Part shown: positions 1,173 to 52,289 of the stretch, piece by piece
Numbering within the stretch: the first letter of the stretch is position 1
Layout: each line of letters starts with the position of its first letter
Assembly: GCF_014930455.1 (NCBI RefSeq)
Contig: NZ_JAAIYO010000021.1
Location: forward strand, 1 to 64,000
Direction: 5' to 3'
Source of the DNA: Corallococcus soli
GTDB taxonomy: Bacteria; Myxococcota; Myxococcia; Myxococcales; Myxococcaceae
DNA length: 64,000 bases
Position numbers and translations under genes: made by a program
Notes under the pieces: generated by a model
What the model was told of the DNA's origin: nothing
The model's input: only the letters and a program-made list of their open reading frames with translations
Databases searched by the model: none

Positions 1173-1655
1173 TCAACCTTTGACTTCACGGCTCCACCAA
1201 GGAAGGGGGACTCTCAAAATCGGATCGTACGCATTCGAAAACTGCCAACTCGCGCCCTTCACCAACAGGACAGCCTCATCGAAAAAATCCGCAATCCGAT
1301 CAAAGCCCGATGCTGCTGGCACAGTAAAAATAAGTGTCGTGCTCCCGCCACCATCCAGTCGCCCCCCTATTTCAGCAATTCTTTCTCGCAACAACTTGTA
1401 TTCAGAGCCACGATTCATCTCCTCTTCCGGAAAAAAATACCAGACGCAAAAATTCCCTCCTCTTTTCAAGACCCTGAACTCTCGACTCTCCTCATCAATC
1501 ACCTCAAATTCATCACCTGCCGCCAGTCCCTCAACCATTCCAGGAGAAAGCAACACACGAAATCGATTCTCTCCCATCACCTCCACAGGCACATCCTCAG
1601 TCACATCAGGAACTTCCGGCACACCACGCACGCGCAACTCAACTTGCACTGACAT
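1173..1655 (-). CDS. DUF4265-like protein, probable immunity protein for the RHS toxin
   Basis: This is a 160-residue acidic cytosolic-type protein with no signal peptide or membrane segment. The N-terminal half (VEVMGENRFRVL, then GLAAGDEFEVID, then a basic VLKRGGNFCVW strand) matches my recollection of DUF4265, in which a loop reading 'GDxxxV' precedes a strand with a conserved Gly-Asn/His. The C-terminal half looks like an alpha/beta domain. The ATG lies five bases after the RHS stop, and the ribosome binding site (AGGA) overlaps that stop, so translation is coupled. The position directly after a toxin tip is that of a cognate immunity protein, and DUF4265 proteins are found in such places. 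Base composition is much more AT-rich than in the upstream operon. The start is secure; the immunity role is inferred from context. Confidence 0.8.
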   Translation of the reverse strand: MSVQVELRVRGVPEVPDVTEDVPVEVMGENRFRVLLSPGMVEGLAAGDEFEVIDEESREFRVLKRGGNFCVWYFFPEEEMNRGSEYKLLRERIAEIGGRLDGGGSTTLIFTVPAASGFDRIADFFDEAVLLVKGASWQFSNAYDPILRVPLPWWSREVKG

Positions 1656-1660
1656 ACATC

Positions 1661-4600
1661 CTACTTTCGACCATACGGGGCCCCACAGCTTCCACGTTCA
1701 GCACAGGACATTCCAGGCGTAACTTCCCCACGATTATTCGCAGACAAGTTACAGGCGGCACCTTCAAGACATGTATTGACCTCCTCAAGATTTCCACCAG
1801 CCGAAGCGGGCACATTTCTATGCCCCAAATGCATATCATCTGGATTCACAGACTCCTGACCACAGCGCCAACATTGATACTTCGCCTTGCCACCACCACT
1901 AGACTTAGCCCGCCTAACCAGTTCCCTAGCGCGGGCATGTCCTTCCTCCGAACCCCGGGCCCCAGCAGTAGGACCTCCTCGGCTTGCAGCAACCTCGGCA
2001 GCAGTCGCACCTTCACCGTCCTTTAACACAACGCCCTTACCGCCAACAGGCTGTTCTCGTGCAGGCCTAATAGGATTCGACTTAGCAATGACATCAATCG
2101 TTTTCCCGTCACCCTTGGCTCGCCTGACGCCAACAAGCATACGCTGACCAGTGGCACCACCCGCCCCCCAAGGCTTGATGTCTATATGGCCGCGCTGGCT
2201 CCTCAGAAATGACGGATGCGAACGACTGAAGTAATTGAATTCAGCAAACGTCTCGCCCAATGCCTTCGACGCAGATTTAACTGTATCTTTCGACTGAAGC
2301 GCGAACGGACCCACCTCAACCAGGAATTGAATTCCAGATTCAATCCGGCTTGCCTCAGATCCAGCTACGGTCGTTCCCGAAACAACTCGCTGGCCCGAAT
2401 CCAGAAGAGGCACCAGCCCCGCTGAACTCTCCGCACCTGCAACGCTGTTCCGAGATGGATTTGACTCCATCGGAACAAGGCGGAATGAGAAGACGCGGTA
2501 CACGCCTCCAAATGCTCCGCCGACACCGTCTCGAGGAGGTGTCCAAGCGACATGACCACTTGCGTCAGCTGTTTGCTGCCCGCCTCCCCAATACTGAAAC
2601 CACCAAGCAAATCCCTGACCTACAATATCCTCCGGGGAAGGCAGCGTAAGCGAAGACCCGAACTGGCCACCAAAGCTCCCCATATCGGCTTGACGGCCGT
2701 CTGGATCCGTATACCGAAGAGGATTGGAATTTCCATACAGCCACGCCTGCATTCCCGTGGGCACGTCCAGATAATTCAATGCACCAACAGGGTCCTCGGA
2801 CAGAAAGCGTCCTGTCCTGGAGTCATACCAACGCTGTTGTGCGTACGTCAGTCCTGCTTCTGCATCCCATGCGTGTCCGGTATACCCAATGCTGGCCTGG
2901 GCCGACGTCGGACCGCTTCCTTCACGGTAATTTCCCCACGCATCGTAGCGATGCTGGGTCGCGGTTCCGCTGGACGGAACGCGCTCCACGGCGCTGCCCA
3001 ATCCATCCTGGAGGATGCGCTCCGAGCCAACCGCTACCGTGAGGCCTGCACCGCGCTGATAGAGCACATCGGTAGAGTTCGGCAGGTGCTCTTCGACCAG
3101 TGTTTCGCCACTCCACAGGTACTTCGTGACGGCAGCGTCGACAGTGCGAGAACGCCTCAAACCCGCGAAGTCATACTGGTACTTCACCTGGCGCTGCTGG
3201 TTGCCTTCCGTCCACTCCGCTTCGACCAGCCGCTCTGCGGCATCGAAGTGGAACAACTTCGTGAGGGCTCCACGCTGTTCGCGCACCACTCGACCCGCTC
3301 GGTCGGTCTGGTACTGCGTGACGACCGCGCCGGCAGACAGCTCATTCCGGGTCTCCTTCAAGCCCCCCAGTGCATCATAGACATACGCCAGATGCTCTTG
3401 CGGCTGGGACGCGGCTTCAAAGCCTGCCTCGCTCAAGGCCCCGGCGTAGCCCGTGACCTTCTTTTCAGCCTTGCGAGACCCATCCTTGTACAGCGAATAA
3501 AGCACCGACTGGCCTTCCGGGTACCGCACCCCTGTCAGCCGGTCCGCTGCGTCATAACCGTACTGCGTGGACTCTGTGCTCCCAGGCGTTTCCGTCTGGA
3601 ACCGGTCCACGACCTCCGTCAGCCGGTTGCCCCGCTCATCATAGGTGTAGCGGTAGCGCAAGAAGGGCGACCCGATCACGGCGTTGCAGTTCTCTCGCCG
3701 TGCATCGTGCGTGACGGAGGCGAGCCGGCCCCGGCTGTCGTGGCAGTAGGTGTGCTTGAGCGCGGCGTTGCCGACCATCGCAACCCGGCCTCCTCCCGCT
3801 TCCCACTCCACGTTCAACGCCGTGCCGTCCGCGAGCGTCACCAGGCTGAGCCGCTGCAGTGGCCCCACGTCGTAGTTCACCGTTCCGGACGGCGACTGCA
3901 CGAACTTCAGCGCACCACTGTCGTGGTATCCGTAGGAGATCGTCTCAGCGCCACCGCCAATGCTCTCCAGCCGGTTGCGCGAGTCGTAGACCAGCGAACG
4001 CACCGTTTGCGTGAGCCCCCGGTGCTCTTTCGCGCTCCGAAGCTGATCCAGTCCGTTGAACACGTAGTCGACCGAGTCCAGGTCCTTGAAGACACGCAAG
4101 GCTCCGGAGGCATCCGCCGTGGCCGGCCCGGCGATGAACTTCTCGTGCACCACGCGGCCGCGGCCATCCACCACCCGCTTGACCCGCTCGCTCAGCTCAT
4201 TGAGAACCTCGGGATTGCCGTCGGTCCACGTCGTGGACCACGCCGCCGAGCCCCGCTTGCGCAACTTCTCACGGCCCAGGAAGTCATAGCCGTACGTCAC
4301 CTCGGGAGTGACGGAGCCGGTCGGGGGCTCAATCCGCTTCAGCCGAGCTTGGCCATCGTAGGTGTACTTGAAGTCGCCCAGCCCGGGAGGCGTGACCTGG
4401 AGGAGCTCGTCCCGCGGACCGTACTTGTATTTCCAGAGAGCCTGATCGGCGGAGCCGTACGCGTGCCGCACCTCGGTGGCGTGACCGGCATTGTCATAGG
4501 CGTCAAAGCGGGTGCGGCTGAGGTCAGGGGCCTTCCCAAAGGTCTCCAACTCCGGCAGGCCACGAGCGTTGTACGTCAGCGTCCGCACCCGCGTATCCGG

Positions 4601-7600
4601 TGAGGTCTCCGACCGAAGCAGGCCGTCCGCGTAATACGCATACGTCGTCTGCTCCGGGCCGAAGCGCATCACCTTCACCCGGCCGCTGGTGTCGTAGACC
4701 CAGCGAGTCACCTCCATGGAGCCAAAGCCAAACGGCTGCGTCCGCAGGGGCTTGCCGTCCGCATAGTAATCCCTTGCGTCCTCGGCCCCTGCCTGGGTGC
4801 GCCGGACCATGTTCCCAAGGCTGTCGACCTTGGCGTGGACTGTCCTGCCTCCCTGGTTCTGGTTGTTCATCAACCACGACTCGATGGTCGAACCGTCGCG
4901 ACCATTCCAGGACGTGCTGGTGGTGTACTTGTAGCTGTAGCCACCCAGGGACCAGCTCTCCTCTTCGTTCCGCGTGCGCCCCCGGTCGTCAATCGCGGTT
5001 GCCTGGTCGCGCGCGACCACCTGCACCGAATCGCCTTCGCGGGTTTCCTGCCGCTTCATCCAGGGGCCGTCGTAGCGGGTCCGGATGGAGCGCTCCTCGC
5101 TTGATCCTCCCTTCCAGACCTCGTGCTCCACCATCCCTCGCGCATTGCGCGTACGGGCAATGACCGTGCCTTCGGGTTCGGTCTCCGTCTCGACGCCATT
5201 GCCTGGATAGGCGTAGGTCCACTGCGCCGGGGGTGTCTGGTCATTCAACGTGCGCGACAACAACCGTCCCAGGTCGTCGTAGGTCAACGTCCACGACTCA
5301 TCCTCTCGCGGCCCCGACTGCGTCAGGACATTGCCTTCCGCGTCATGGGTGAAGGCGGTCATGACATTGCCTGGCCAGGTCACGGACAGCAGGTTCCCCG
5401 CGGAATCATATTCACGGCGCGTCCTGCGCCCGGACGGGTCCACCGACTCGACCTCGCGCCCGAGCGCGTCGTAGTCCATGAGGTGGACGGACAGCTGTCC
5501 GTCCACCGTCTCCGTCACGCTCAGGATTCGTCCCTGCGCATCCACTGAATAGGTGCGCACTTCTTCCCGATCCGCGGGCTCCGTTGGCGTCCCGCCCGAA
5601 AGATTGCGCGTCACCTGGATGGTGCTGGGGCTGTCAGGGCTGTCTGTGTACGCGCGCGTCTCCGTCAGCGTCCTGACGCCATTCACGGACTGCACCATGC
5701 GCTCATATCGCGTCACCCGGCCCAGGGCATCGTCGTACGCATAGGTCTCATCCAGGCCTGTTTCGACGTCCAGACGGTGCAGCACCCTGCCCGCCTTGTC
5801 GTACGTCGTCTGAACGTGGATGCCACCATGGCTCTGGGCATTGCTGTCCACAGACAACTCACGGCCCATCGCGTCCGACACCGAGTCCATCACGTGCGGC
5901 TTCGCGAGCGTGCCGAACGTGCGCGTCTTCACCGCGCCCGCGGCATCCAGCACCACCGTCTCGACATCCGCGAACTGGCATGCCTCGTCGCAGGATTCTC
6001 CTGCGCCCTTGGACTCATACGCCCACCGCACCGGCCGACCCAGGGCGTCGTGTTCAATCCGTGTCTTGAGTCCGCTGCTGTTCGTGACTTCGGTGACGTT
6101 GCCGTCCGCGTCCAGCTCATTCGAGTAGAGCGTCTGTCCATTCACCGTCTCGCCCGTCACCCGGCCTGCACTGTCGTACGTCAGCGTATGCCGTCTCCCC
6201 CGTCCGTCCAGGAACGACATCAGCCGCGTGCCCTGGTAGGTGTCGTAGTCCACGACAGCGGACTGGATGCTCAGCCCGTACGTGTAGCGCTCCGCGCGCT
6301 TGAGCCCTTGCTGGTAGTCCGTTGTGTTCGACTGACTGCGTCCCCACCTGCCGAGATTCAGCGTCTGGGTCACGGTCAACGCATCGTCGGCGAGCTGATA
6401 GTCATACGTCCACGACTGGGCCGGCGTGCCGGCCACCGTGCGCGTCAGCAACCGGCCGACGGCGTCGTAGGTGAGCTGGACGTGCGCCCCGGTCGCCAGG
6501 TTCCGCTCGGAAGTGCGATTGCCGAGCACGTCGTAGCCGTATTCCACTTCGTAGCTTCCAAGGCCCCCGGCGCCGACGAGCGTCCGCGTCACGGTGGCCA
6601 CGAGGGGCAGCCCCAAGGCCTGCGTCTCGTGGCCGGAGTACGTGATGGCGTTGCCTGTCGGATCCTCGCCGCCCTGGACCACGCCATCCGGATCCGGGAA
6701 CTGCTGCGCCGAGAAGACGACCTTCGCCGTCGCGTCCGTCACCGTGACGCCCGTGGGGTCGCCAGCGGCCGACAACGGCCGGCTCACGCTGGCCATGCCG
6801 TGGCCCGTGGCCACCGCCATGCCCAGGACCCGACCCGTCTGGGATTGACGCTCCGTCACGGACCAGAGCGCCCCATCCGTTGCCCCCGGCACCGGATGGC
6901 TGTTCGCTGGCGCGGCCTCCAACGTCACGGCATCCAGTTGGAGACGGGGGTTGAGGGTGTTGCGCAGCGCACGCCCACCGGGTGTCCCAGACACCTCCAC
7001 CTGTACCGGTCCCCCCCGGACATCACTGCCCCACTGCACCGTGCTCGGGCCCAGCCCCGGCACATGGGTCGCGTTCGTGTTGCCATACGCGTTGAGATCG
7101 AGCGCCACGTCCACGCCATCCGGGCGCTTGACGGTGCGCGCTTCCTCGGTCGCTGAAACAATGCGCCAGCCCGGCGCGGGCATCCCCGTGCCGACCACCG
7201 ACGTGACGACCTCCAGGGGGTCCACGTGCGGGTACGTCCCCTGTTGCGACTCGCGCGCGTACGTTGCCTGCCACTGCACCACGGGCGCTCCCCCCGCGGG
7301 CGGGCTCAACATCAACCGCGCCGTCGTCACCTCGTTGGAGGCGCTCCAGAGGGCGTGTCCGCGCAGCTCCGTGGGAAGCGGCACATAGCCATAGTCCCAG
7401 ACCTGCGTCGCGGGCAGCGCGGAGCCCCGGGTGACCGTGAGCAGGTTGCCGCGCTTGTCGTGCGTGAAATCCAGATGGTGCAGCATCTGCTGTGAGGCCT
7501 TGACGCGCACTTCCACCGTCTTCAGCAGCGCGAAGTCCTGGTTGCGCGCCATGTTGCGCAGCCGGTACGCCACGGTCTCGTCGCTGGTGTTGATGTCCTC

Positions 7601-47300: not shown

Positions 47301-50123
47301 CAGCACATGCGTGCTGCCCGCGGGCCCGAGCTTCGATGACGGCACCACGACATGGGTGACGAAGGAGCCCCGCACGCCGCCGTTCTCTCCCGGCGACGCG
47401 TCCAGCAGGAGGCGGACCTCATCCAGGAGGATCTCCACCTTCTCCACGTCCACGTCGTCCAGCCCCGCGACGGTGACGAGCAGGTCCTGCGTGTCCGTCA
47501 CCTCCGCTGGCTCCTTGGGCACCACGAAGGACACCGAGGGCGGCACCGCGTCCGGGACGACGAACACCTCCGTCTGCGTCAGCGTGGTGAGCCCCGCGGC
47601 ATCGCGCGCCTCGGCGGAGATCTTGAGCTGGGTCGACTGCGTCACGGTGGGCAGCGTGTACCCAAGGGTGTAGGGCGCCTGCGTCGACTGCCCCACCGCG
47701 GCACCCGCCACGAACCACCGCACCTGCACCGCGTCTGGTTTCTCGTCCGTGACCCGGGCGCTCAGCGACACGCGGCTGCCGCCCACCAGGGTGGACTGCG
47801 CGGCGGGCGTGAGGATGCTGAAGTCCCTGGGAGGCGCGTCCGCCTTGACGTGGGCGGTGAGGGTGTAGCGGGACGACTGGTTGGCGCTGTCGGTGGCCAC
47901 GATCTCCACCTGGCGCGCGCGCCCCAGGTCGCCGGAGGTCGGCGTCCAGGACAGCGCGAAGGGTTCGCTTCCCGCCGCGGTGCCCCCCGTCCCTCCACGC
48001 GTCAGCCGCACTGACTGCACGGTGGTCCCGCCCACCCGCAGGGCCACCTGCGTACCGAAGGCCAGGCTGTCATCGCCCACCGTCCCGCTCACGAGGAACG
48101 GGACGCCCACCACGGCGTCGGCGGCGGCGCCGCGCGGCTGCTTCACGGTGAGCAGGGGCGGCGCGTCCGCGACGACGCGCAGCAGGAGCGTCTCCGAGCG
48201 CACCAGCGCCCCCGCGTGGTCCAGCGCCTCCACGCGCAGCGCCATGCTGGTGCCCGCCGTTCCCTGGCGTGGCGTGAAGGTCAGCTCCCACAGGGGCACG
48301 GGAACGGCCGCGTGGGTTTCAGGGTGCTCGCGCACCTCCACACGCGGAAGGTCCACCGCGCCCGCGAAGGCGTCATCCAGGTAGTAGCGCACCACCTGGA
48401 AGTCCTCGGTGGACAGGCCGCCGCCGGTCCACTCGCCACTGGTGACGCGCAGCACCTGGGGAAGGCCCTGCACCAGCATGGCGCCGGGCGTGGGCAGTTC
48501 GATGAGGACCGGCTGCTTGCTGGCGGGGGGCGTGCCCGCCACCCGCACGTTCACGTCGGGGCCCACCACCTGCTGCCCGCCGCTGTCCACCACCGCCGCG
48601 GACACGTTGAGCGTCGCGCCTCCATACGGGGGCGCCTGGATGCGCAGCGTGTACGGGGCCTCCGGGTCCCGGCCCGCGGGCACGCCGTTGATCCGGAACT
48701 CGACGTACGCCACGCCGAGGTCGTCGGTGGCCACGGCATCCAGGTCGAACGCGGTGCCCGCCGTCACCGTCGACGGCGCCGCGAGCCGCACCGACGGTGC
48801 GCCGTCATTGACGACGACGTCGGCGGTGGCCTGAAATGACTCGTGGGTCGAACGGATGCGTGCCACGCCGGGGCGCAGACCGGTCACCCTTCCGTTGCCG
48901 TCCACCGTCGCGATGTCCGGTGCTTCCGACGTCCACTTCGTCCCCAGCGCTCCGGAGGAAAGGTCCACGCGCCGCGCGGGCGTCCCGGTGAGCACGCCCT
49001 CCAGGCGCAGCGACGTCGTGCCCCCCACCCGGGCGACCTGCGGGCTGACGGGAAGCACCTGCACGCTGGCGAGGTCCGCGCCCGCGTCCACCAGCACCTG
49101 GGTCGTGGCGCTCAACCCGCCGAACGTCGCGGTGAGCTGGGCGGTGCCATCCGTGCGGGCCTGGACGCGGCCGTCCTCGGACACCCCGAACACGGAGGGA
49201 TTGGACGACGCGTAGACGACGCCCTGGAGCGCCCCGCTCAGGTTCACGTCGCCCGCGAGCGCGAAGTGCCCCGTCACCTGCACGGTCGCGGTGGAGCCAT
49301 ACCCGCCAGACAGCAGCAGCGGCGAGGGGCTGACGGAGAGTGACACGAGCGGATCGAACGCGCGCCCGCTGGTGAACTCCACGGCGGATCCGTTGACCAC
49401 CCGCCCATACGGATCATGCACCGCGACGTCGGCCACGACGACGCCGTCGGCCGGGACCTGGAGATCGCCCGACAGGGGAACGACGAACTCCACCTGGCTC
49501 GAGCCCTGCGCCTGGGGCCGGGCCACCTGGCGGCGCACGCTGGCGAAGGCCACGGCCTCCGCGTCACTGAGGCTGCCGTGCACCCGGCGCAGCGCCTCCA
49601 CCGAGGCCCCCACGAGCGTCAGCTCCGCGTGCGACACGGGTCCCTGCACCGTCACCCGCACCACGAGGTGGGACAGGTCCCCGCTCGCGTTCACCCGCAC
49701 CGCTCCGGCCGGCAGCACCGGGGGGGCGCTCGCGAGGTCGAAGCTCGCGTGCTGGACATCGCCCCCTCCACCGCTGGCGGGAGCGGCCTCCACGGTCACC
49801 ACGGCATCGGGGGGCAACGCGCGCCGCAGCGGCACCCGGACGTGGAAGGGCACCGCGCCCGCCAGGTCCTGTTCCACCACGACATCCTGCACGTCCACCA
49901 GGACGCCCTGGGAGACGGACGTCGCCTTCACCGCCACGCGCAACTGCGTGACGGCCCCGCCGGTGGTGGTGAATCCCAGGTCCAGGGCGCTCGCGCCGGG
50001 CCGCAGCGGCATCAGCGGGAACACGGCGGCCACGCGCGTCTGCGCCTGGGCGTTTCCCGCCGCGATGAGCCCTGCCACCAGCGCGAGCAGCGACAGGCAC
50101 CGCTTCAAGTTTTCAAGGAGCAC
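17313..50123 (-). CDS. 10,936-residue secreted multidomain beta protein (Ig, LVIVD, Big_5, IPT/TIG, Gly-rich repeats)
   Basis: A single uninterrupted frame of 32.8 kb encodes a product of over 1 MDa. It starts with a Sec signal (NAQA, cleavage near residue 28). Layout by residue: a beta N-domain; two BIG2-like domains (260-438); at least 20 Ig-like repeats with a recurring Asp-Asp-x-Val-x-x-Val-Glu motif (440-2855); seven supermodules of LVIVD/propeller-like blades, a Big_5-like domain and two IPT/TIG-like domains (2875-7231); alternating Ig-like and propeller-like blocks (7350-9658); and four glycine-rich repeats (9661-10931). There is no C-terminal sorting signal, membrane helix or enzymatic domain that I recognise. 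The role is probably an extracellular matrix or adhesion filament, or a scaffold for the RHS protein encoded downstream. The start is a GTG preceded by GAGGGGGAG. The absence of frameshifts over such repetitive DNA argues for selection on the whole protein. Confidence 0.92.
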   Translation of the reverse strand: MLLENLKRCLSLLALVAGLIAAGNAQAQTRVAAVFPLMPLRPGASALDLGFTTTGGAVTQLRVAVKATSVSQGVLVDVQDVVVEQDLAGAVPFHVRVPLRRALPPDAVVTVEAAPASGGGGDVQHASFDLASAPPVLPAGAVRVNASGDLSHLVVRVTVQGPVSHAELTLVGASVEALRRVHGSLSDAEAVAFASVRRQVARPQAQGSSQVEFVVPLSGDLQVPADGVVVADVAVHDPYGRVVNGSAVEFTSGRAFDPLVSLSVSPSPLLLSGGYGSTATVQVTGHFALAGDVNLSGALQGVVYASSNPSVFGVSEDGRVQARTDGTAQLTATFGGLSATTQVLVDAGADLASVQVLPVSPQVARVGGTTSLRLEGVLTGTPARRVDLSSGALGTKWTSEAPDIATVDGNGRVTGLRPGVARIRSTHESFQATADVVVNDGAPSVRLAAPSTVTAGTAFDLDAVATDDLGVAYVEFRINGVPAGRDPEAPYTLRIQAPPYGGATLNVSAAVVDSGGQQVVGPDVNVRVAGTPPASKQPVLIELPTPGAMLVQGLPQVLRVTSGEWTGGGLSTEDFQVVRYYLDDAFAGAVDLPRVEVREHPETHAAVPVPLWELTFTPRQGTAGTSMALRVEALDHAGALVRSETLLLRVVADAPPLLTVKQPRGAAADAVVGVPFLVSGTVGDDSLAFGTQVALRVGGTTVQSVRLTRGGTGGTAAGSEPFALSWTPTSGDLGRARQVEIVATDSANQSSRYTLTAHVKADAPPRDFSILTPAAQSTLVGGSRVSLSARVTDEKPDAVQVRWFVAGAAVGQSTQAPYTLGYTLPTVTQSTQLKISAEARDAAGLTTLTQTEVFVVPDAVPPSVSFVVPKEPAEVTDTQDLLVTVAGLDDVDVEKVEILLDEVRLLLDASPGENGGVRGSFVTHVVVPSSKLGPAGSTHVLSARAWDTSGNAGAAPKVVVHTKADGAPLVSFPLLTPSRATIGTKVDVAVEARDDVAVKAVELFLDGQSLGRDLVPPYHFSFRVQGPERVAVLEARASDDTHVSSVQMDLTVAKDLQPPMLTFRTPPPGSPVFAGRTLDVAVAASDDVGVTQVALVSPGPRKVLTTSDAEGQLIRVFHGTVTVGPELEGQTLTLQAEATDSSNLTTVRTLEVAVVKDQDPVVALVAPAAGTPYTEGEDVRLVATVGDDDGVVGLVGLSGGVRQGTLPLSGPPLLLSGQQTLVVQAPIVSKGAPPSVGIEARDTGGHTGKAEVHLDVRADTSAPSAVLVAPLPSPSATVTVKQGGALGLRVDVGDDVRVARVEVELRRGGTPVVLPEGAALLTSKDGRYEETRTPNPLSPGEILVSRRFLASFEGTLSLKDLPSHDGYVLVAKAVDPAGNATSTAPLTFNIVEAQDLEAPRLFLALEGTPSSKTCVAGSQVTLRAQADDDGMLASLAVKADGQALTVAPFGPVAKLLRTWPLTLPALGSFGSRTYAFTAQVTDTAGRTTHATLACELVADAPPVVRWALPATDAALLEEGTQALRVEVEEDTGLAAGWLVGSTGAPTGFSGNGHFLLPTPNAAGGTRGSAVKLEFGQEQSFVLQAGATALEVHAPATGLLGASPRRLVLSLEPAAAEGLRAEVRYRYTVRPGLEDDAQLLAFLAANPGGRRQVDLGTAPRCGDVPGGPHCVDLLFPSALDMEEVRVLLLPAQGGDAVSAISEVGVRYEGAFAQVRAVARGQRLTVQPWQMAVTPGKVFTAQGTYRLPEGWSPEPVRLTVAVRDLAGALTVQGRQFRAAPDTLGPTVSISQPLSGAFRVEKESFNVQVEASDNVDVRRVELLVDGVSRGTRAGARLGTVSFPLSIPAATTGAPLQLVAVAEDRSGNASVSPVVYLEIRKDSAPTVALSHLEYALPNGPPTGGNRVSETELQSGYVRVLEGVVHSVKLQAEDDVGLSKVEAWYDDVLLASDTPGTLARSLSRTVSFTPLRKAGGAPALLRVTVTDTKNVSQTVRVLVEPRAPRAPAIAIATPTPGMTLTEGSISMVLSAVAGDDTGVDRVEFFVNGQSALTVSRSQARPIDAEPADGSPGSLPRADEPALRDAAGRLPVPFNDVSLLKEFQGRVWLPPGLVKRDPAHPTKLVIRAVARDLENHTTGVEHTVDVVEDASAPEAIVLRPSLGQDVVEGSPVVIEAMGIDNVFVEAVEILAGPHLGQLRTLRRAGGFSPGDSVFQESYGVSSPVVRAEFTAPRLSEMGAGDSAPYFVVVKVWDSAGNVSAQALQLIDIVRDQPPAVSLISPGDGTSVVEQTPVTVTVSAEDDVAVTSVGVLVNGVPQGLILRAPPYVFSVPVPVGAPTVSFQAVARDSFNHEVRSQVVVVSVKQDAPPTVAIAEPQNATHVTEGRDFAFLVAAQDDVGIRSVEATVEGGLGGTLRFVSTSAPHRFRVPLPPGSAGRTLTLRASARDTAQKQALAPVVTVQVQADTTPPTVSFRTPANNSEITAGQALRVEADADDNVAVVRMDFRINHTPYATMPAAPFAFTYRVPANLATTNLLIEAIATDTSGLQSIVASRTVAVKEDALPEVAMLPVGRLVVGRPTPLSATASDDVAIASVGFHASHAGGAEMEVGRREQLPFQVLYTPQPEEVGKTVVFRARALDLAGQARWSPAVSGVVERDQEPAVAILQPLDGSAIFEGTPVRFDVDAQDVEAPVQSVHFFVDGRKVATSSAPAGYAGKPTVFSATFQPDVGSGNRLLVLTAVAVDSAGQETTSVPVTVGTVRDTVPPDVELVDPPGHDVVTEGEPLVLSAAAEDNAASGNNAAVQRVDFLLDGGVIDSDSTPQPGPANRPLYQVSWTPPMGAAGELRQFHAAATDPSGNRGVSLPESVEIGMAPSGRFVPFPGDITQTLLRRGPGRVVLLGKTGGTPKHQVVLTRIDQGSTTGLGAVDVDGPPRAAAFAGTHAVVATSAAPAAGGTPAFPPQLTVLAVPAGGMPLRLGSVDLPGQDIHGAAAVGQLAFVANGAAGVAVVDLGDPEAPVRLNTRSVVGTAYDVAVQGDLLLVAAGTGGLRVHDLRSPTLAPRGQVALPGEAVRVVTQGHLAYVACRDAAATLAVVDVSNPEEPLIQALVPHRSARQDLMATGLSDVVVEGNLAVVVASLVKGLQQTPVKGLLTASLLDTDGAVTPFVRANLPRAGGVTLASGTPVALYGDEGGAVFTLPRFAVTGVTPWDGSPDVAVDSAVALEFSAPPDGAEVTAETVMLREGDPVLGRRVTATLTASGRTVTLTPDEDLTVSTPYFVVVTSSLRDIAGKALAKPFIAGFRTRATAHEAPRITTLVPAAGPLEGGTRVTVTGQHFVAGAQVYFAGGEGQGVEVAADGMSLRVTTPARQEGPAVVTVVNPDGGEGTLYGGFLYLPMLQVSFVAPASGPLLGGTRVEVSGAGFQRGATVTFNGAPALNVRVLAPGRLEATTPPGAFGPADVVVVNPDTQQAFAAEAFLYSRLAVSRVIGRYNPTPDVPSQPDDVLARGTPVAVALQAQTAWVLSEASVNTQALSATHMMETSLPGGLGAVDVSVPEDAFVLGGIPILPPYMPAALAVRGNRAYVVANAPMLPFVDVVGEGGPSLLVFDVSQRTAPLSKGAVPFPGTGRSIALVGDLALVAAGDAGLLTFSLTDPDRPLLLGARTQFLMGGSTAAVSVEQVTASGSLALAQVKRGTAISTLLLDLTLPGFPAVGELPGEFGAMPLRDTQALSAWRTLRTASLVPASRPYLQAVVPALMRGGLFASGALGPQVAVAVTSPIGQSGSPASLQFVEASDLSAPRGIDAIDLYPATQLSGVDLEGDVAVVSISGTMQGRATDGLAVVRMPFPVVVASHPVAGEVAARPAEAVRLTFNVPVEKGPSFDARLVQLDGSATGLFVASTATVFNEELTVDPATSLEMSKRYRLSVKGLRDADTHAVMPGTFTLEFGTAKVASPVPLQVTSVSPRQGLVAGGTAVTIEGNGFRGTGQGLPHVLINGQTVEAAQASDSQVTLIMPPGVEGAATLEIRNTGSGTRFVLPGAFVYTGDLELLSLAPPRGPTAGGTRLVLSGHGFSPTGTVKVCFRTQVDCVNARVLGLNQLEVTTPNGARGVVDVTVVNPDGTTATLPNGFTFDQPTGASVALKGTLRDSVVIGSYAYVVGSTGLTVVDMSGLYTRGPLAGGGVPIPPDRQGGLVDADGMNGDDRIVGSVAAGDLWAVSYPASGGDRIFASGVLSKDGNDQPTAGAVHEFDVSNPFQPKLVSTRSIPGDGAYGVDARGDRLLAAAATQGFHTFDISHQPFPIRKDPSDPGAQALSVEGGQAAVGVGTRTASGTVQDGRLRMLSVEGPVTVRGELGVNVQRVRLRGTLAAVAAGAEGLVLVDVSDPAHLVRLGDIDVKGFATDVRLAGDLAYVSAGAAGVAVVDISNPLSPQLRHHVTGAQPGSTYAAVLTPGGRVVSLRQRNDSGAWSVDFGPGTDLSVVSASVAQGDVVPVDLPSLTVVFSSTVDPTSARDAFQLTANGQVVAGTLQAGDAQQALSTVVFPLTAPLPADAAMRLTVAQTLESRDGRSLAAPLQVDFRTALSAGAAPSISQLVPRVGPVSGGGVLQVLGSDFDASCEVSIGGRPATVLTRSSTRLDVRAPAGAPGLADVVVLNTDTGLGARRPGGYFYTLPLQAFAATPRFLNPRGGSTVEVVGEGFLPDWADSLGVSTQVRVRGIPATQVEVLSLTKLRALAPPGSFGDAPVMVVSSDGVERSVAPSPAGYGLPFLGQEPALAVRPHALSRSPLSPFYVYAAAGAAASGNMFPQTYLGALTGGGTVPQTYRAVAYDVQLAGRPRAAGNQIVKADDASVDLVMAVLNHYLPASTPLPDIELMPDSLDLALSGTRLYVASGLSGLAVLDGTGTLETNASGGLETLGLLGRAKLGGATGLLSTRVVPTPVGAWVLSNGLMEPPGGSAGTCQPVRDQIGTDGKVFLVDARAPGDPVLVTQAGGEGFEPYGATVADGRLFVVTGHHQGVRYTRCSPDQPLPPLPEVSLKGGARGGQRTLYKPDAATPKGSLLVYSSAGADAVVEGTLLEEGNLTDVVVRDGVAILASAEFGLTFVDVTNPQAPSVITRIAFNEEMSNTPGEPQRLRLVGDVLFVAANQGGVVLVDVSDLRHPVLLSGGNTEAAMDVLPVGDRLMLAGRTAVSELETPFMLVTGTSPARGERVPPGLAELVVRMNRPVSPGSVTADSVRLRDPQGLPVPLTLSVRNIPGQLDFAIVAVPQQALLAESLYSLEVETSVTDQRGGALLLPLRTSFRTAKSGARAPVITSFTPSTVSTDGGGTVTVHGHGLTGVNRVVLGAGQEGTALHAVDDETLTFTLPTLSAGPVDVRLVDVGGPEALFPAGLLALEPLAGKTVTLSPNHGPVEGGTRVRVSVAARSMAPGTTVRVGTQDGTDVDVIDLSTLEFTTPMTDGAGLVAVALSRPEDKDTEGNVIPVPVGTFSYDLPIGVTMRLPGFPPLEASDIKLVGDRLYVGVSTPSRSGLEVFDVRLEERPLRLGGLSTLSPVRGLDVDGALALLANDVAGLAAVDVSRPETPFLVRRVSTEGAATGVRLEAQRAFVTTVNHTGAPGSVQVFDAGSPALDLVRTVPLVSDALALDLGPERIYLLTSDVVGTQGNGLVLSIHDRDGSRLGHLAVDSALTQFEDLVRSRVVVRARRAYVTAGRRLHVFDLSNEAAPVRVQSTDLGVELAGLGWVGGTLFVSTDSATTTVQTVPPVELLPVGMTPAAGTLSAPPTSVRVDFTLPVKEPISAQAFEVTVTRAGTSAPVPGARAVEYAVRGSSVVFTPTPPFQFQDGDDVSVYVDGLVSLGLAPQAAAFQGTFTVVGQQALQPRIVSLSPASGRADQTTAVVLTGSGFRAGDVVRVGGRPVTVTETTENTLTLLIPPAPLDLSGLPVAGAASVEVVDPSGLFALRLGGFVYRDELKLVSLTPDRAPQQGGVKVRLAGRGFAPGMKVAFGGTNSFDVRVLGTQVAEAVAPSQGPGMADVSVTLGSDVSVLPSSFLYGAGAVSRLTTPPVRHVVVEGGVAYAALGATVDIFGANGDLLAAGRKTAGGGLLLASLSEPTHVTSLKELSFAGQGGSRRVLKRGNTVFVAAGSGGVRRVNVTTPDEASELPALAGNAADIALSGPLLFVGDSEGVKVFDVSNDAAQPLRVGARAIAGGVSALALHGGHLLVSSATTSAPMFRVLDARTGDLAERGAVGLMAPAVHITAEGTRAFLSLGAAKQVALYELADPTHPTPVGAMVLEAPLGGTWVSAEQTRVAAGMAYVAAGGGKVQRFSVREGEAPVKLGQASVVGDARTLAFMGHHLLVGTLVLDDAGNAVELPLSDPAQAMLPLAGALASVELDTLEIRGTQPAEGELVAAGVAPRVLLTSLPDVSSASQVTLVRVDDGEPVPVSRSVLADAQGGQVVLTPASPLAQDTRYELRVGAQLKDLRGATLGAEARVRFRTSRDASQERPEVASVSPAYGLEAGGNEVDVVGTGFLRDCVVKFGGATALVSQVAPDGRRVRVTVPPGTAGAAAVEVINPGGLSHLRLGAYRYLSLPALAEVTPARAPFDSRQVVTLKGQGLFPGSQVTFGSVPARSVTFNESGVLQVEVPDGVTGRVDLTVLTPGVPPQQATLAGGFTFTLAKRAQLEGLGRVVAREAHRLFVARDGALTVMDFSSPASPTQVGTVDGVQEPVDIALHGHNLFLAGRGEVVRYELTPQACAAVPMATCNPVERSRVKLAPTSGVDLRAVAAGDSGAYVAVAGGNELALLAPVNGVYAVVARTLLDTGTVLDLDMVQGALLVLVADGASGTRLEVRGTENASLPLISEVRGLGMTSGGSGALAHEGTRVAASAGNRLYLFDVTALDAPDLMASALDPSAGTSDTLALAGPWLLAGNGGRASWVDTTQGLQERTFAEGLGNVSGVAVINGVAVAATASGSLQVLKLPYPTVDALSPLPGGRVAPGANVSVVLASELAGPVVAASTLGLWDDAVPVPGTVLPSSQSLAFVPTEGLEPSRTYVARLGLGPVPEVVGGTVLGPWQYALRAGGDAVSMSVASVSPDSGPVAGGVAVSVLGAGFTSDTRVSIGGVQATPIAPAEPERLQVMLPQAVVPGPAVVRVWRDSGAEAFAPSRFLYVAPLSFASVTPRAVDVAGGTVRISGTGFHRGLEVRFDGEKADTQNLTATSVDARVPAGDERHLTLTLSQPGAVPEVVAQAVYRGDVRAPLIERVEPMATVGSQNVPLAAVFDVRFDEAVAGASAQGLWLLRHPSGVVVPGTVGLLGDGRTLRFTPDAVLTSTTSYALSINGVTDVAGNVALTSTRVFRTVDTVKPTLRLRRAGGAVVTDDARFAAAVSWAFQVEATDDGDGSVTTTLHVDGQPVTLSNGSYRYTWPVTAVGSSSVLTATATDASGNVSDTVSVTVDVVDDSPPEVSFQTPLADATHDEGASQAIVVAASDNHGLASIELQLDGVPLAKLDVPSGVSGTLSHTVVLAPVPGTATQVTRVLTAYATDNQGQVSAAEPRTLTVLRDAQAPTVVLRSPVDGGRVVGGADLLLQATASDANGVGSVEFLVDGASVGTVQKAPWALTWRAPGAESAEPHTVKAVARDSRGNAGEASASFTVEPASSQPYVALSEPAVGASLPEGRSFEIVVTATAPAGVASVWVRAGDQEFNLTQAPWRLTVVAPVLEGGSSPMALMLEARVTDRVGVTSPTVHTQVNVVDDGQASVALSLSQEPDGLLLLGGSTLALTGATDGGGTPVLSARVGDVLLPVDALAGGTRGEALLPDGPEGATVVTRATALAVGGASATVERTGTLAVLAGGVATRLEDSVDALTPVALVSRGDTVLVVRGDAGSGLLELRSRQTGAKLATQDVLGTPVGAVFMGDSVLVAVRRKGAGALERYALPGLVFQDATSLPRAPQAMDGADGWIALATDQGVEVRRPDGSLAGQLALGRVKSVSAEGERFFALTDTGLSAVEVSDAQPASLELSHVELGASDFTAVAALADGGACVVGARVRCFGMDAAKALVSRGEAVPGAVAVNASALGEMLVMGTASGARVLDVRGPPRVSGLYPAVSGPATLVPGALMGGHSRGVARLPVVRGPATPHLAMTLPSTAVQGSRLALGAQVTDDVLPLNAFTAELSVNGVVVDVRDSRLPTWVDLPVSGSTATVELVVRDLAGCQARVLRELSLTAATSGPELASVNAPAYVDEGTFFQVVAVPKDPARVAQVEVTLAGGSPVMLTAPMLAGELLAPLVGEQASMQVSFVAIDAEGRRGPASASTLIVRDSGAVQVPSVSLEPVDDLSLSAVEGRFVKVRATTTVGSVATSVRFLVGQTEVARGMGAITEAMVMMPLGVGARQVVVSAVARNGNGPESAPATLTFGVSDDVEAPSLSITTDPPGPSVAAGSELLARAASADDTSLERVTLELWLAGVRQARGGTEVRFLVPEQTPVGTALELRARAEDRSGNVTPLTVMRTVVGPALPVDVTGVALQGATHVTRLGERVYVAHAKGLWVGRVTGPAEAPVLEALGGVTTPSAPLSLAALGSHVALALGEAGLWLVDVGTPTTPVVVSRLAGHYTAVAASDRFYTARTQGGTRLVESLDVGDPSAPLRTMVNQSSTMALAGAVMDGPLIVTNASSVQVPMVSETGNVGVRSLSVQPALVRGVHVDGDLLVMGTDRSLRAWMRPWAANLLLTQVADVPLPSGVRALEVARGVAYVLDDDGWLRVVDLREPTSPQLVSRTWLGANDLKMGGGLLFTAGPEGARVLRLPVPTAGVAAGAVVLNDTALGLTPFRGGALVAARTAGVRSVSVAGGSAPRDVGVARAGVDVRQVERAGRDVLVLDGQELKVSREAPDGSLPSSDSRDTALLAALGNVDRFAASPGRLWAVSAGTVKSLRWPAAEGAASLLLGSAVMDVAGDDQRALVALGAQGVAVVEVAPSGQLRRVATLPVNASTVALAGPLAVAGGATSFSVFALEDGGAPLLVGTVPTAGAVQRIRLEGRLALVSEGAAGVELWHLPEGQPFTRKAQLAGMGASDAVLAAGQVLVAAGSAGVRAFTPPTDVLPAVRVTAPTGTAVAETGAEVALSALASGVGLDAAELVVDGQPVVALDESAPRARWTVPGGSVAGQRHALQVRVRGAGGTEALSPVLTVEVKAPTTGAPAVALDSPAANQQLRSGALVTLSARRTGGLSPATMVARLGTLSLGRLFPDAANPQVYKAPVRLPVVDAAVEETLTVVLSDGAGRVAEASTPVRLLADSLAPGVPAGLPAQLRAGPYVNAFQVYASDDGVVSLELEKDGVGLATSPEANGNANLAYALLLPEDAVGTQVTLKVTARDAAGRQTPVEKTYTVAPDGVAPKVTLYSTQPPTTAIEGSNIQVQATASDVDGDLAGIQLYADGALIGTGTGTFVTATYTMPLLAVKSAVVFRAVATDKRGRTDFTERTTTVLANLPPVLRFTMTPTPPALRGETVTVCVEAKDNANIETFVATVEGAPLGAPTSCGAGCRSRCLAVTAGAAATQLVAAASASDDLGALTENTHTFPVVANQPPVVALAPLTSVSKGVNVTLSGSVQDERGPLAWAEFRVNGALVGTRMNAPGVGASLKRTWSPPTVGVIRISLVAQDQLGLVGESFQDVMVVDPQEPTGVIAADDMQYEGMDILVQGSKTLRIDGAHTFRNLYVLGGATLTHSEQGVSGRNLLDLTVTQEVRVDSSSKIDVSGRGYLGGWRGANQQRPGLTTGHASTGKTDVGGSHGGYGYAEGYKAGSNPPTPVYGDYWDPDDFGAGGSGGVSSTSLGGSGGGLIRLRAGSMKLDGRLLANDGPTNSRAGAGGGIRVDVGALTGVGSMEAGSISGAGGRVAVYYDTETSSFDWSKVSAKGGTVGGAGTVYLKGSLQQDGELILNNGDNSPSLSSVKPTPVPGGTYDRFAVRGRAVVEVEQLLTTPTLEVNGGSVVFLDELAGGFTTLRVQGGGTLDLRQPWSYAAGMAVEVTGNNSALRVTGGAPLRLSNLKVTGTGATLALNANLDGQPRSLELEAPTVEVGSGASIDATGAGYLGGHQGVNELEPGRTTGNVSSGKSVAGGSHGGHGYSNVLAIGAVPVPTYGDSKNPSDFGSGGSGGNPAGALGGNGGGLLRLTVDTLQLNGTVRANGGKSAGPFGGAGGSVRVDVGALTGTGALEAVGADNGGGGRVAVYYDTARTSFDWSKVSARGGNAAGPGTVFLKGSQQQDGELILDHGTSTVSTNNPKPTRVPGGTYDRFVARNKAFVEVTGALWASDLLVDGASVIVQGALSGDLTALRVLGSGGLLDLRQPWAFADGLAVEVNGANAALRVTGGNPLRLSTLKVTGTGATLALNASLDGSAPQPLALEAATVEVGTGASLDVSGAGYLGGWQGANEQRPGRTVGNVSTGRNAAAGSHGGFGDVESSSTAVPLHGDLHAPMDSGAGGSGGAVSSLTGASGGGVLWLKAGSLKLDGRLLSNGARSLFSTGYDGAGGSIRLEVGALTGTGSIQASGGGDVGSGGGGGGRVAVTYDTATSTFDWSRISAPGGVSGGTGTVFLKGSQQPNGELVLDQSNHALNRAILAPTVVSTGTYDRILARNAAWAEILEGVSTSIIQVEGTGTGLLLSGVQPRLLSSLKVTGLNATLGAGRAEDGSPLPLNLEVSGAVEVGPGAAINLDGAGYLGGRQGVNKTQAGRTLGNLSTGLNNAHGSHAGHGANMNVAPYGDYQEPKEAGGGGSGGPGAQPGGNGGGVLRLEAASLRLDGMLLASGKDSGSGYYSGAGGSIWLDVGALTGTGSMALVGGTSGGGGRVAVYYDESSTTFDWTRINAVGGYQGGGPGTVYLKAHAQPYGDLIVDNANGQFNPSTQLPTPLLINATGSRTFRNLTVTRKASLATPDALNITGTLTVDSSSRLQSSTHNLP
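17330..21000 (-). repeat. Four tandem glycine-rich repeats at the C-terminus of the giant protein
   Basis: Four copies of a roughly 300-330-residue unit are marked by GYLGG at about 20901, 19911, 18911 and 18031, so the period is about 990, 1000 and 880 bases. Each unit contains, in order, GYLGG-x-x-G-x-N, a GGSHGGYG-type motif, a short YGD segment, a GAGGSGG run, a strand with LDGRLLA, a GGRVAVYYD strand, an FDW-S-K/R motif and a GTVFLKGS-type strand. The regular short strands and glycines suggest a beta-helix or beta-solenoid. The last copy is truncated and ends in a single final strand region. Confidence 0.8.
28430..41500 (-). repeat. Sevenfold supermodule: LVIVD/propeller-like + Big_5-like + two IPT/TIG-like domains
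   Basis: The same domain order recurs seven times inside the giant protein. The blocks start at about 41500, 39700, 37720, 35850, 33690, 32030 and 30110, so each unit is 1.7-2.2 kb. The propeller-like part has strands such as AYVAAGxxGVxVVDVSDP. The Big_5-like part runs from a Pro-rich turn to an FRT strand. The two IPT-like domains have the GGTxVxVxGxGF signature followed by VVNPDGG. The copies are diverged, so the duplication is old. The seventh unit is followed by an extra Big_5-like domain (28400-28090). Confidence 0.75.
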
Positions 50124-50125
50124 CG

Positions 50126-50134
50126 CTCCCCCTC
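50126..50134 (-). promoter_or_regulatory. Ribosome binding site of the giant gene, supporting a GTG start
   Basis: On the minus strand GAGGGGGAG ends two bases before the GTG at 50123-50121. Pairing through GAGGGG leaves a normal five-base spacer. No ATG occurs at the head of the frame, and the signal peptide begins directly here, so GTG is the likely start. Confidence 0.6.
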
Positions 50135-50199
50135 ATTCCCAACGAAGACCAAATGCTGACCGGCAACCCACCCCGCCCCCACCCGCCGCCACGAACCCG

Positions 50200-51123
50200 T
50201 CAGTCCTTCAAGACCGTGTCTTCCACTGCCGCGCCGCCATCCGACACCTTGACGGAGGACGCGGCCCGGAGGCGCGCCAGGGTCTGTTCGAACACCCGCC
50301 GCTGGGCAACCGGAGCCATCTGACCCAACACGGCTTCCCGCACTTCCTCGAAGGGCGGCACCCGCGCGGACCGGCGCTCCTGGAGCACCAGCACGCCCAC
50401 GCCCGTCGCGTCCTGCACCACCGGGGACACCGCCCCGGGACGCGTCAGCGCCAGCGCCGCCTTCTCCACGTCCGCGCTCCCGAATTCGCCGCGCGACAGC
50501 AGGCCCCATTCACCGCCCCGGGAGCGTTCGGGGCCGTCGCCGGCGGCGGCGACCTTCGCCACGGGCTCGCCGGCCACCAACCGCTTGCGCAGCCCCTCCG
50601 CGCGCTGGCGGGCCTGCTCCCAGACAGGACGCGGGCTCCCCGCAGGCACCGACACCCAGGCACGGGCCATCCGCAGCCGCTCGGGTTCGGCGAAGCGCTC
50701 CAGGTGGCCCTGATAGAAGGCCCGGGCCTCTGCCTCCGTGGGCGCCGGGGCGGCCTTCTGCTCCTCGGCCAGGAGGGCCTGGATGCTCAGCCGCTCCTCC
50801 AGCTCACGCACCTGACGCCGGATGTCAGGGTCCTGGGTGAACCCCCGACGGACTGCCTCCTGGAAGAGCAGTCGCTTATCAACCAGGGAGCGGATGAACT
50901 CCTGACGTCCCGGCCCCCGCTCGAAACGCTTTCGAAGGTCGGGGGGCAGGCGCTGGCTCTCACGCAGGACTTCTTCCTCGGTGACCACCCCGCCGTCGAA
51001 GCGGGCCACGATGGAAGGAGCAGCAGCCGGGGGGACCGGGGCGGGGCCTGACGGCCCGCAAGCCGAGGCCAGGAACAGGGAAGAGACGGCGATCCACGAA
51101 ACTGCGCCCTGCTGGTGTCCCAT
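50200..51123 (-). CDS. SurA/parvulin-like lipoprotein, first gene of the giant-protein operon
   Basis: The frame could extend to 51363, but the ATG at 51123 gives a compact lipoprotein signal (FLASAC, lipid Cys22) and a 307-residue protein of the usual size. Features are a Pro/Ala linker, a SurA-like N-domain (about 36-130), and a parvulin-like domain (about 148-250) with GGEWGLLSRGEF and a closing GVGVLVLQER strand, then a helical tail. The domain is more diverged than in the other two parvulins here: the first strand reads RMARAWVSV and lacks the usual histidine, so activity could be chaperone-only. The gene ends 76 bases before the giant gene and is read in the same direction. It probably assists folding or export of the giant products. 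Confidence 0.87.
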   Translation of the reverse strand: MGHQQGAVSWIAVSSLFLASACGPSGPAPVPPAAAPSIVARFDGGVVTEEEVLRESQRLPPDLRKRFERGPGRQEFIRSLVDKRLLFQEAVRRGFTQDPDIRRQVRELEERLSIQALLAEEQKAAPAPTEAEARAFYQGHLERFAEPERLRMARAWVSVPAGSPRPVWEQARQRAEGLRKRLVAGEPVAKVAAAGDGPERSRGGEWGLLSRGEFGSADVEKAALALTRPGAVSPVVQDATGVGVLVLQERRSARVPPFEEVREAVLGQMAPVAQRRVFEQTLARLRAASSVKVSDGGAAVEDTVLKD

Positions 51124-51272
51124 ACCGTCCCGAGCCCGCTTCCCAATGGGGCCAGGAAATACTCCAGTTCGGACATTGATCTCAAGCACCTGTAGGATAA
51201 CGGACAGCCTGACATTCAATGGCGTGGGGCCCGCGCATGCGCCCTGGGAGTCGTTTGACCGTGGAGCGTTCG
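51124..51272. promoter_or_regulatory. Divergent intergenic region with candidate promoter for the 50-kb operon
   Basis: These 149 bases separate two divergent parvulin genes and must hold both promoters. On the minus strand TTGAGA (51185-51180) and TATTTC (51161-51156) lie 18 bases apart and could be a sigma-70-like promoter for the operon. The -35 is good and the -10 weak. For the plus-strand gene I see no convincing pair. Its ribosome site is GGAG (51263-51266), six bases before the ATG. Confidence 0.3.
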
Positions 51273-52241: not shown

Positions 52242-52289
52242 CAACCAGTCTTCGCGAGGGGGCCTGACGGTGCGGAGCTTGAGCGGTCT

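Follow-up and report, generated by a model that had tools for sequence, protein, structure and literature searches.

A candidate toxin-delivery island in Corallococcus soli with two giant exported proteins and three parvulin-type lipoproteins

Introduction

Several described systems place a very large protein with an exchangeable toxin at the bacterial surface. In CDI (CdiB/CdiA), a very long surface protein carries a swapped C-terminal toxin, accompanied by an immunity gene and by orphan tips. For large secreted myxobacterial Rhs toxins, a CDI-like mode of action is so far a presumption (PMC10433427). That account describes Rhs4 and Rhs5 of M. xanthus, which are about 4,000 aa long, have a signal sequence, RHS repeats and a C-terminal toxin, and kill in T6SS-independent kin discrimination. 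Teneurin-like proteins (TLPs), which are common in Myxococcota, are lipoprotein RHS/YD-shell toxins with N-terminal adhesion domains and a polymorphic tip, and their genes are followed by one for immunity (PMC13018210). The SitA toxins of myxobacteria are polymorphic lipoproteins with an immunity gene that are moved by outer membrane exchange (PMC5562445). Rhs proteins are also common T6SS cargo (PMC7170923, PMC8765631).

We analysed 64,000 nucleotides of C. soli DNA (contig NZ_JAAIYO010000021.1, positions 1 to 64,000), referred to hereafter as the window, and found an island that resembles each of these systems in part. Unlike CDI, it has no CdiB-type transporter, TPS or haemagglutinin repeats, and its toxin and its giant protein are separate polypeptides. 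The described SitA locus (sitB, sitA, sitI) is far smaller and contains neither a giant nor parvulins. Rhs4 and Rhs5 are set apart by description, the passages of PMC10433427 that describe them mentioning no giant partner or parvulins. Compared with the TLPs, propellers sit here in a separate giant, and isomerases or parvulins are unmentioned in PMC13018210. A literature search that lacked most subscription journals found no described equivalent of the island.

Results

A sequence-only reading of the window had proposed a five-gene unit of parvulin foldases, two giant proteins and a toxin-immunity pair on one strand at 1173-51123. The spacings of 76, -4, -4 and +5 bases between these genes were confirmed, and all five frames are intact and on the minus strand. 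Pfam upheld the gene identities, and we confirmed lipoboxes in G1, G3 and G4 and an ordinary Sec signal peptide in G2. The five genes stand, but the unit was incomplete: a divergent third parvulin gene, PV3, had been overlooked. The conserved set comprises PV3, G1, the giant G2, G3, the RHS giant G4 and an immunity gene, laid out as follows.

1173..1655, minus strand: G5, DUF4265 gene, candidate immunity protein (Pfam DUF4265, 2e-13)
1661..16408, minus strand: G4, 4,915-aa RHS lipoprotein, predicted polymorphic toxin carrier (lipobox, Pfam/NCBIfam)
1661..2695, minus strand: predicted C-terminal toxin tip of G4, 344 aa (hypervariable, ~8% identity)
2696..8143, minus strand: RHS shell of G4, DUF6531 to the end of the RHS-associated core (Pfam/NCBIfam)
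8159..11491, minus strand: G4 residues 1640-2750, conserved region rich in invariant cysteines (block identity, Cys columns)
16405..17316, minus strand: G3, parvulin lipoprotein related to SurA/PrsA (Pfam Rotamase, 6e-24)
17313..50123, minus strand: G2, Sec-exported giant of Ig-like, TIG and beta-propeller domains (intact ORF, domain searches)
17316..21116, minus strand: G2 residues ~9670-10936, glycine-rich beta repeats (repeat counts, alignment)
28419..41546, minus strand: G2 residues 2860-7235, seven copies of a propeller - Big_5 - TIG - TIG super-module (AlphaFold2, Foldseek, copy comparison)
50200..51123, minus strand: G1, parvulin-like lipoprotein without catalytic histidines (Pfam Rotamase_2, 8e-11)
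51219..52241, plus strand: PV3, parvulin lipoprotein with a SurA-like N-terminal domain (Pfam Rotamase 6e-13, SurA_N_3 6e-09)
52242..52290, no strand: island boundary on the PV3 side (flank comparisons)

Scans of the locus returned no sigma-70-like promoter site, which says little at the 71% GC of the window and for non-sigma-70 promoters, and no terminator, a result of equally little weight at this GC.

The giant protein G2 starts at a GTG and is 10,936 aa long, with Big_7, Big_2, TIG, LVIVD and Big_5 domains. Orthologues at 33-76% pairwise identity have G2-like frames of 9.7-12.7 kaa, all uninterrupted. Because these frames are intact in many genomes and the gene order recurs, we rejected a chance ORF or an assembly artefact as the explanation for G2. 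Colinearity among 22 orthologues spans about 9,600 residues, and each super-module copy is closest to its positional counterpart in distant orthologues. Only the glycine-rich repeats vary in copy number (four in the window, 0-5 in orthologues); in this C-terminal region conservation drops and gaps increase. Since the first 9,600 residues show a constant copy number and each module is specific to its position, a simple repeat adhesin was rejected. The AlphaFold2 model of the fifth super-module copy (pLDDT 91.5) gave MET and plexins as its top Foldseek matches. The likeness is one of fold only, a propeller followed by Ig-like IPT/TIG domains; G2 differs in having seven tandem copies and about 10% sequence identity to these ectodomains, and no kinship is implied.

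The three parvulins share with the SurA/PrsA group an exported PPIC domain and a SurA-like N-terminal part, and SurA was the best PDB match of the G3 family profile (7e-27). They differ in being lipoproteins, in numbering three paralogues for one island, and in that one lacks the active-site histidines. G3 is 303 aa long and its lipobox Cys33 is invariant among 27 sequences. PV3 is kept at the same position in relatives (32-92% pairwise identity). In alignments the first active-site His is partly Gln in G3 and PV3. Both parvulin active-site histidines are missing from G1 (307 aa from the ATG at 51123; the frame opens at a GTG at 51363) in 25 of 25 aligned sequences. For G1, "foldase" may therefore mean holdase; chaperone activity may not require the parvulin histidines. 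Genome G070 carries two tandem modules without room for G3, and this, together with the missing histidines of G1, suggests that at least one parvulin is dispensable. The sequence-only reading had overlooked the degenerate G1 active site, as well as PV3 and the fact that the locus is an island.

G4 consists of an Ig-like Glucodextran_B/Big_13 array, DUF6531 (3e-07), RHS repeats (RHS_repeat, 2e-27) and an RHS-associated core. PDB relatives of its RHS shell are Rhs proteins and teneurin-like proteins. Residues 1640-2750 are 35-61% identical per 100-residue block, with invariant and near-invariant Cys columns. The SPII signal, YD shell and polymorphic tip of the TLPs are all present in G4, and a candidate immunity gene comes after it. 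Pfam and phmmer against TLP structures gave no match to an NHL propeller/FN-plug; the AlphaFold model of the pre-shell region (residues 1640-2800) was too weak for use (pLDDT 60).

When the core, tip and downstream ORF of G4 were compared among 20 loci, the RHS cores matched in all 190 pairs but the C-terminal tips in only 3 of 190. This comparison bears out the earlier proposal of a toxin carrier with a candidate immunity gene behind it and identifies G4 as a predicted polymorphic toxin. Three tips among the loci show similarity to known toxin families, in two cases with scores under the curated cut-off. By eye, the Cys/His/Asn pattern of the tip in the window is reminiscent of HNH nucleases, a reading that drew no support from Pfam or PDB searches. 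G5, a protein of 160 aa, starts 5 bases after G4 and has a GC content of 0.51, compared to 0.71 for the window; in most of the 20 loci a low-GC ORF (0.49-0.62) follows G4 at a distance of -23 to +33 bases. These ORFs directly after G4, as variable as the tips, are candidate immunity genes.

The gene order, on whose conservation the sequence-only reading had staked its proposal, recurs in several genera and outside the family. Within the order, the set is conserved across Myxococcaceae and extends to further families. The same 32 of 96 Myxococcaceae genomes encode G1 and G2, which never occur apart, and 31 of these 32 also have G3. The signal types of the proteins are conserved across orthologues. 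Divergence of all five proteins is correlated (r = 0.85-0.94; r = 0.94 for G2 and G4). The order in some Myxococcus is G1-G3-G4-gap-G2. Genome G131, which we take to be an Anaeromyxobacter since the family fits, has the complete G1-G4 module and two orphan tip-plus-immunity cassettes with core DNA 96-98% identical to the G4 core. No outer-membrane transporter is encoded in the island, and beyond the set no gene is shared between the flank types.

Comparison of one chromosomal site in Corallococcus delimits the island. In genome G027 it measures 53,947 bp and holds just the six genes, while genome G022 has about 31 bp at the same site. The island is absent from genomes G018 and G016, where orphan immunity genes remain, and a divergent version (~43% identity) occupies the site in genome G028. 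The flank common to all six Corallococcus tested begins at 52290; relative to G028, flank DNA identity of 85-90% stops at about 52290, just beyond PV3. These comparisons show that the six genes are gained, lost and replaced together.

Discussion

Gene order, co-occurrence, joint divergence, the toxin/immunity pattern and the discrete island support well the claim of a dedicated system. In the soil-dwelling myxobacteria that carry it, the cassette comes, goes and is exchanged as a whole, and so has the look of a hitherto undescribed system for delivering toxins. We consider it probable that the locus is a polymorphic-toxin island that is self-contained and horizontally exchanged and brings its own giant delivery or display proteins and chaperones, working by a mechanism such as that outlined below. 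The conserved signal types, the invariant cysteines of G4, the closeness of G3 to SurA and the colinearity of G2 with its position-specific modules also favor this reading. The lack of an encoded outer-membrane transporter, the missing histidines of G1 and the tandem modules of G070 that leave no space for G3 weigh against it.

Other explanations assign the delivery of G4 elsewhere. It is very improbable that G4 is the cargo of a secretion machine encoded outside the island (T6SS or Tad/Kil), with the giants as accessories. Rhs proteins are common among T6SS cargo, yet such cargo normally exits from the cytoplasm, and G4 bears a lipoprotein signal peptide and an Ig array, with no PAAR or VgrG-type domain found in domain searches. 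Since a lipobox and Ig array take the place of a PAAR/VgrG-associated N-terminus without signal peptide, T6SS cargo identity was rejected for G4. CDI two-partner secretion was rejected as well, there being no CdiB/TpsB or TPS domain in G1-G5 or PV3 and no conserved extra gene in the flanks. An RHS toxin acting alone at the surface, as proposed for Rhs4/Rhs5 or WapA, would leave G2 and the parvulins as an adhesin or matrix passenger. The killing by Rhs4/Rhs5 without T6SS and the order G1-G3-G4-gap-G2 in some Myxococcus would suit such a toxin; however, G1 and G2 are never apart in 96 genomes, G2 and G4 diverge in step, and the G027 island contains the six genes and nothing more, so that we regard this as unlikely. 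Unlikely, too, is that G4 is a SitA-like lipoprotein toxin passed by outer membrane exchange (TraA/TraB), with G2 an unrelated adhesin or an aid to adhesion. G4 is indeed a lipoprotein with a polymorphic tip and an immunity gene, as SitA toxins are, and carriers are mostly Myxococcaceae. Against this, the full G1-G4 module is present in the presumed Anaeromyxobacter, a genus reported to be without traAB (PMC6372800), and described SitA loci (sitB/sitI) have no giants or parvulins. The PA14 family, used as a proxy for TraA, matched only fibro-slime, lectin-type and PKD proteins and no TraA, so this proxy was set aside as uninformative.

For the self-contained island that we favor, Sec would carry G2 and G4 over the inner membrane, and lipid-anchored G1, G3 and PV3 would hold and fold these very long, beta-rich polypeptides in the periplasm. 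G4 would be anchored by its lipid in the outer membrane, with an Ig stalk and an RHS shell enclosing the toxin. G2, with its Ig, TIG and propeller domains, might form a surface fibre about 0.3 micrometre long that attaches to the partner cell, presents G4, or both. On contact, the target cell would receive the released tip, and survival would require the matching immunity gene. Targets would be other bacteria, probably including close relatives; related myxobacteria would be the main ones and prey are possible. The roles proposed earlier, a scaffold or fibre for G2, parvulins acting on the giant proteins and display of the toxin outside the cell, are plausible, and we infer from the locus the fibre role of G2, outer-membrane crossing and entry into targets. 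More tentatively, the island may be a contact-dependent injector of a new kind in which the G2 fibre and the G4 RHS lipoprotein warhead are two parts, folded by dedicated membrane-anchored parvulins that aid outer-membrane crossing without a known secretion system, and whose 50-kb cassette spreads by competing for one chromosomal site.

The island ties a secreted Rhs toxin to dedicated chaperones and to a conserved, colinear giant, about 10,000 residues long, without which it is almost never found. At a single Corallococcus site some strains have the island, others a replacement, no island or immunity genes alone, which amounts to a clean natural experiment. A protein family of near fixed length (10-12 kaa) that resembles tandem MET/plexin ectodomains also deserves attention for what it may tell about how proteins fold and are exported.

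Six genes form one island

The sequence-only reading had claimed five genes, all of which proved real, with coordinates and spacings as claimed (76, -4, -4 and +5 bases from G1 to G5) and all on the minus strand. Pfam also bore out their identities as parvulins (G1, G3), an RHS protein (G4) and a DUF4265-like protein (G5).

G1, 50200-51123, minus strand, parvulin domain (Pfam)
G2, 17313-50123, minus strand, 10,936 aa; Ig-like, TIG, LVIVD and Big_5 domains
G3, 16405-17316, minus strand, parvulin domain (Pfam)
G4, 1661-16408, minus strand, 4,915 aa; RHS repeats and DUF6531 (Pfam)
G5, 1173-1655, minus strand, DUF4265 (Pfam), candidate immunity gene
PV3, 51219-52241, plus strand, parvulin with a SurA-like N-terminus, divergent from G1

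G1-G5 do belong together as had been supposed, but the sixth gene, PV3, had been overlooked. In genome G027 (three-digit handles denote compared genomes) the flanks lie 53,947 bp apart and enclose PV3, G1-G4, an immunity ORF and little else, while in G022, in which the module is absent, the same two flanks are ~31 bp apart and the site is clean. This spacing indicates that the operon and PV3 form one discrete island. The PV3-side flank was common to 6 of 6 Corallococcus genomes tested; the toxin-side flank is out of view in the window because the contig ends in an IS66-family transposase gene (5-790, plus strand), beyond the island's toxin end. Short transposase-like ORFs resembling IS66 accessory genes follow G4 in G028. 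Comparison of island flanks gave no additional gene family recurring across different chromosomal contexts.

The pairwise identity matrices of G1, PV3, G2, G3 and G4 correlate (r = 0.85-0.94), and the divergence of these genes is out of step with that of the species. G023 and G026 match the window genome at 100% identity in RpoB but at only 42% in the G2 N-terminus; the corresponding values for G027 are 99% and 78%. Flank DNA of G028 is 83-90% identical to the window up to ~52290, 49 bases beyond the PV3 stop, and then diverges (G2 N-terminus, 43%), while in G027 homology runs on through the module at 81%. Judged by sequence, this is a six-gene exchangeable island. All island genes compared are under purifying selection, with dN/dS between the window and G027 of 0.15 for G1 and PV3 and 0.28-0.43 for the G4 core, G3 and G2.

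Distribution and gene order

A profile search found a G3-specific clade, clearly apart from background parvulins, in 32 of 96 Myxococcaceae genomes. The G2 N-terminus was also present in 32 of the 96, G1 in the identical 32, and G1, G2 and G3 together in 31. Contig ends explain, at least in part, the two genomes that break this co-occurrence: the G010 contig stops inside G2 and that of G054 soon after G3. No p-value is attached because the 96 genomes are not independent. The earlier proposal that gene order would be conserved in relatives held: neighbourhood comparison showed PV3-G1-G2-G3-G4 in most loci, with an alternative G1-G3-G4-gap-G2 arrangement in some Myxococcus. Carriers include Corallococcus exercitus AB043A, C. 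sicarius, Myxococcus xanthus AM003, M. eversor, M. qinghaiensis and Citreicoccus inhibens; in other families of the same taxonomic order the module, or contig-end portions of it, occurs in G131, G155-G157 and G121.

Several loci depart in detail. One Myxococcus group has an extra exported RHS-repeat protein of ~1,400 aa between G3 and G4 (L042:456-4616, plus strand; equivalents in G059, G074, G075 and G078). A trypsin-like lipoprotein gene (~550 aa) lies between G1 and G2 at L080:10158-11840, minus strand, and a similar gene is found in G035. G070 (L164-L168) has two tandem modules in which no G3 separates G2 from G4; at another place in the genome lies a G3-like copy with a TGA stop. Two modules lie ~100 kb apart in M. 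eversor (G055:C21), separated by what look like NRPS-type megasynthase genes. The G059 locus (L056-L058) is otherwise intact but has G2 in two frames (6,118 and 4,266 aa), owing to either a frameshift or an error in sequencing. The second hit in G014 (L153-L155) is what remains of a decayed module: a G3-like gene and, after it, a G4 fragment of 92 aa.

Giant proteins and parvulins

The 22 orthologues of G2 are 32-57% identical to it and alignable over ~9,600 residues, mostly with 0-6% gaps per 200-residue block; copy number varies only in the last 1,100-1,300 residues, which are glycine-rich repeats. Residues 2860-7235 hold seven copies of a propeller-Big_5-TIG-TIG super-module. Each copy is 33-53% identical to its positional counterpart in distant orthologues but ~25-31% identical, over long stretches, to the other copies; the super-modules are therefore ancient and tied to their positions, whereas in many adhesins the repeats fluctuate. 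An AlphaFold2 model of the fifth copy (pLDDT 91.5) matched best, in fold likeness only, MET and plexins (propeller plus IPT/TIG) in the PDB. From the domain count, we estimate that a putative G2 fibre would be ~0.3 micrometre long. The conserved part of G4 spans residues ~1300-4570, and numerous invariant cysteines at 1640-2750 are as expected of a location outside the cytoplasm.

The best PDB match of the G3 profile was SurA. Both active-site histidines are missing from G1 in 25 of 25 sequences; G3 and PV3 retain most of theirs, although Gln replaces the first His in several. Since SurA-type parvulin chaperones can work without isomerase activity (cf. PMC2556385), G1 is likely a holdase.

Proposed delivery and known systems

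The island proteins carry predicted export signals (lipoprotein for G1, G3 and G4, Sec type I for G2), kept in type among orthologues. We propose that the parvulins would chaperone the giants, that the proteins would be displayed on the surface with G2 as a fibre, and that the toxin tip (the hypervariable C-terminal part of G4) would be released into a neighbouring cell. That G4 is a lipoprotein makes a serious rival of delivery by outer membrane exchange (TraA/TraB), the route of the SitA toxin (PMC5562445). The case for this rival is weakened by the module's occurrence in G131, which we take to be Anaeromyxobacter. That genus is reported to be without traAB (PMC6372800).

The proposed system resembles CDI in its manner of working, but the island is not CDI because it has no CdiB/TPS part. 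G4 is not a T6SS Rhs effector. It has much in common with bacterial teneurin-like proteins (PMC13018210), although their defining NHL/FN-plug was not detected in it; the secreted Rhs4/Rhs5 of M. xanthus (PMC10433427) may be related. The island falls among polymorphic toxin systems, and its delivery part is undescribed: like the sequence-only reading, which knew of no system of this composition, we found no description of giant-plus-parvulin-plus-RHS islands in the literature searched.

Toxin tips and candidate immunity genes

The G4 core matched in 190 of 190 pairs (mean identity 38%) while the tips (297-403 residues) matched in 3 of 190, the pattern by which G4 is classed as a polymorphic toxin. 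At most loci a small ORF of GC 0.49-0.62 (window, 0.71) starts -23 to +33 bases from the stop of G4; these ORFs are candidate immunity genes and would protect against the adjoining tip. One tip scored above the cut-off for the toxin-type deaminase family XOO_2897-deam; two resembled Toxin-deaminase and Ntox50, both below cut-off, and the family search assigned no toxin family to the rest. By eye, the C-x2-C / H-x2-H / N pattern of the window tip is HNH-like, a reading without search support. G131 (L180) shows tip swapping by recombination directly: two further cassettes lie immediately downstream of G4, and each joins a stretch of G4 core DNA (1.1-1.6 kb, 96-98% identical) to a different tip and a low-GC ORF of its own.

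In 3 of 4 examined strains that lack the module, orphan immunity-like genes or pieces of toxin tips occupy the empty island site. ORFs in G018 (L181) share 50% (154 aa) and 30% (160 aa) identity with the post-G4 ORFs of G078 and G039, one in G016 (L184) shares 45% (173 aa) with its counterpart after G4 in G055, and G029 (L183) has tip- or immunity-like pieces. Non-producers thus seem to retain antidotes, and this retention, the best evidence on targets, points indirectly to killing among myxobacteria.
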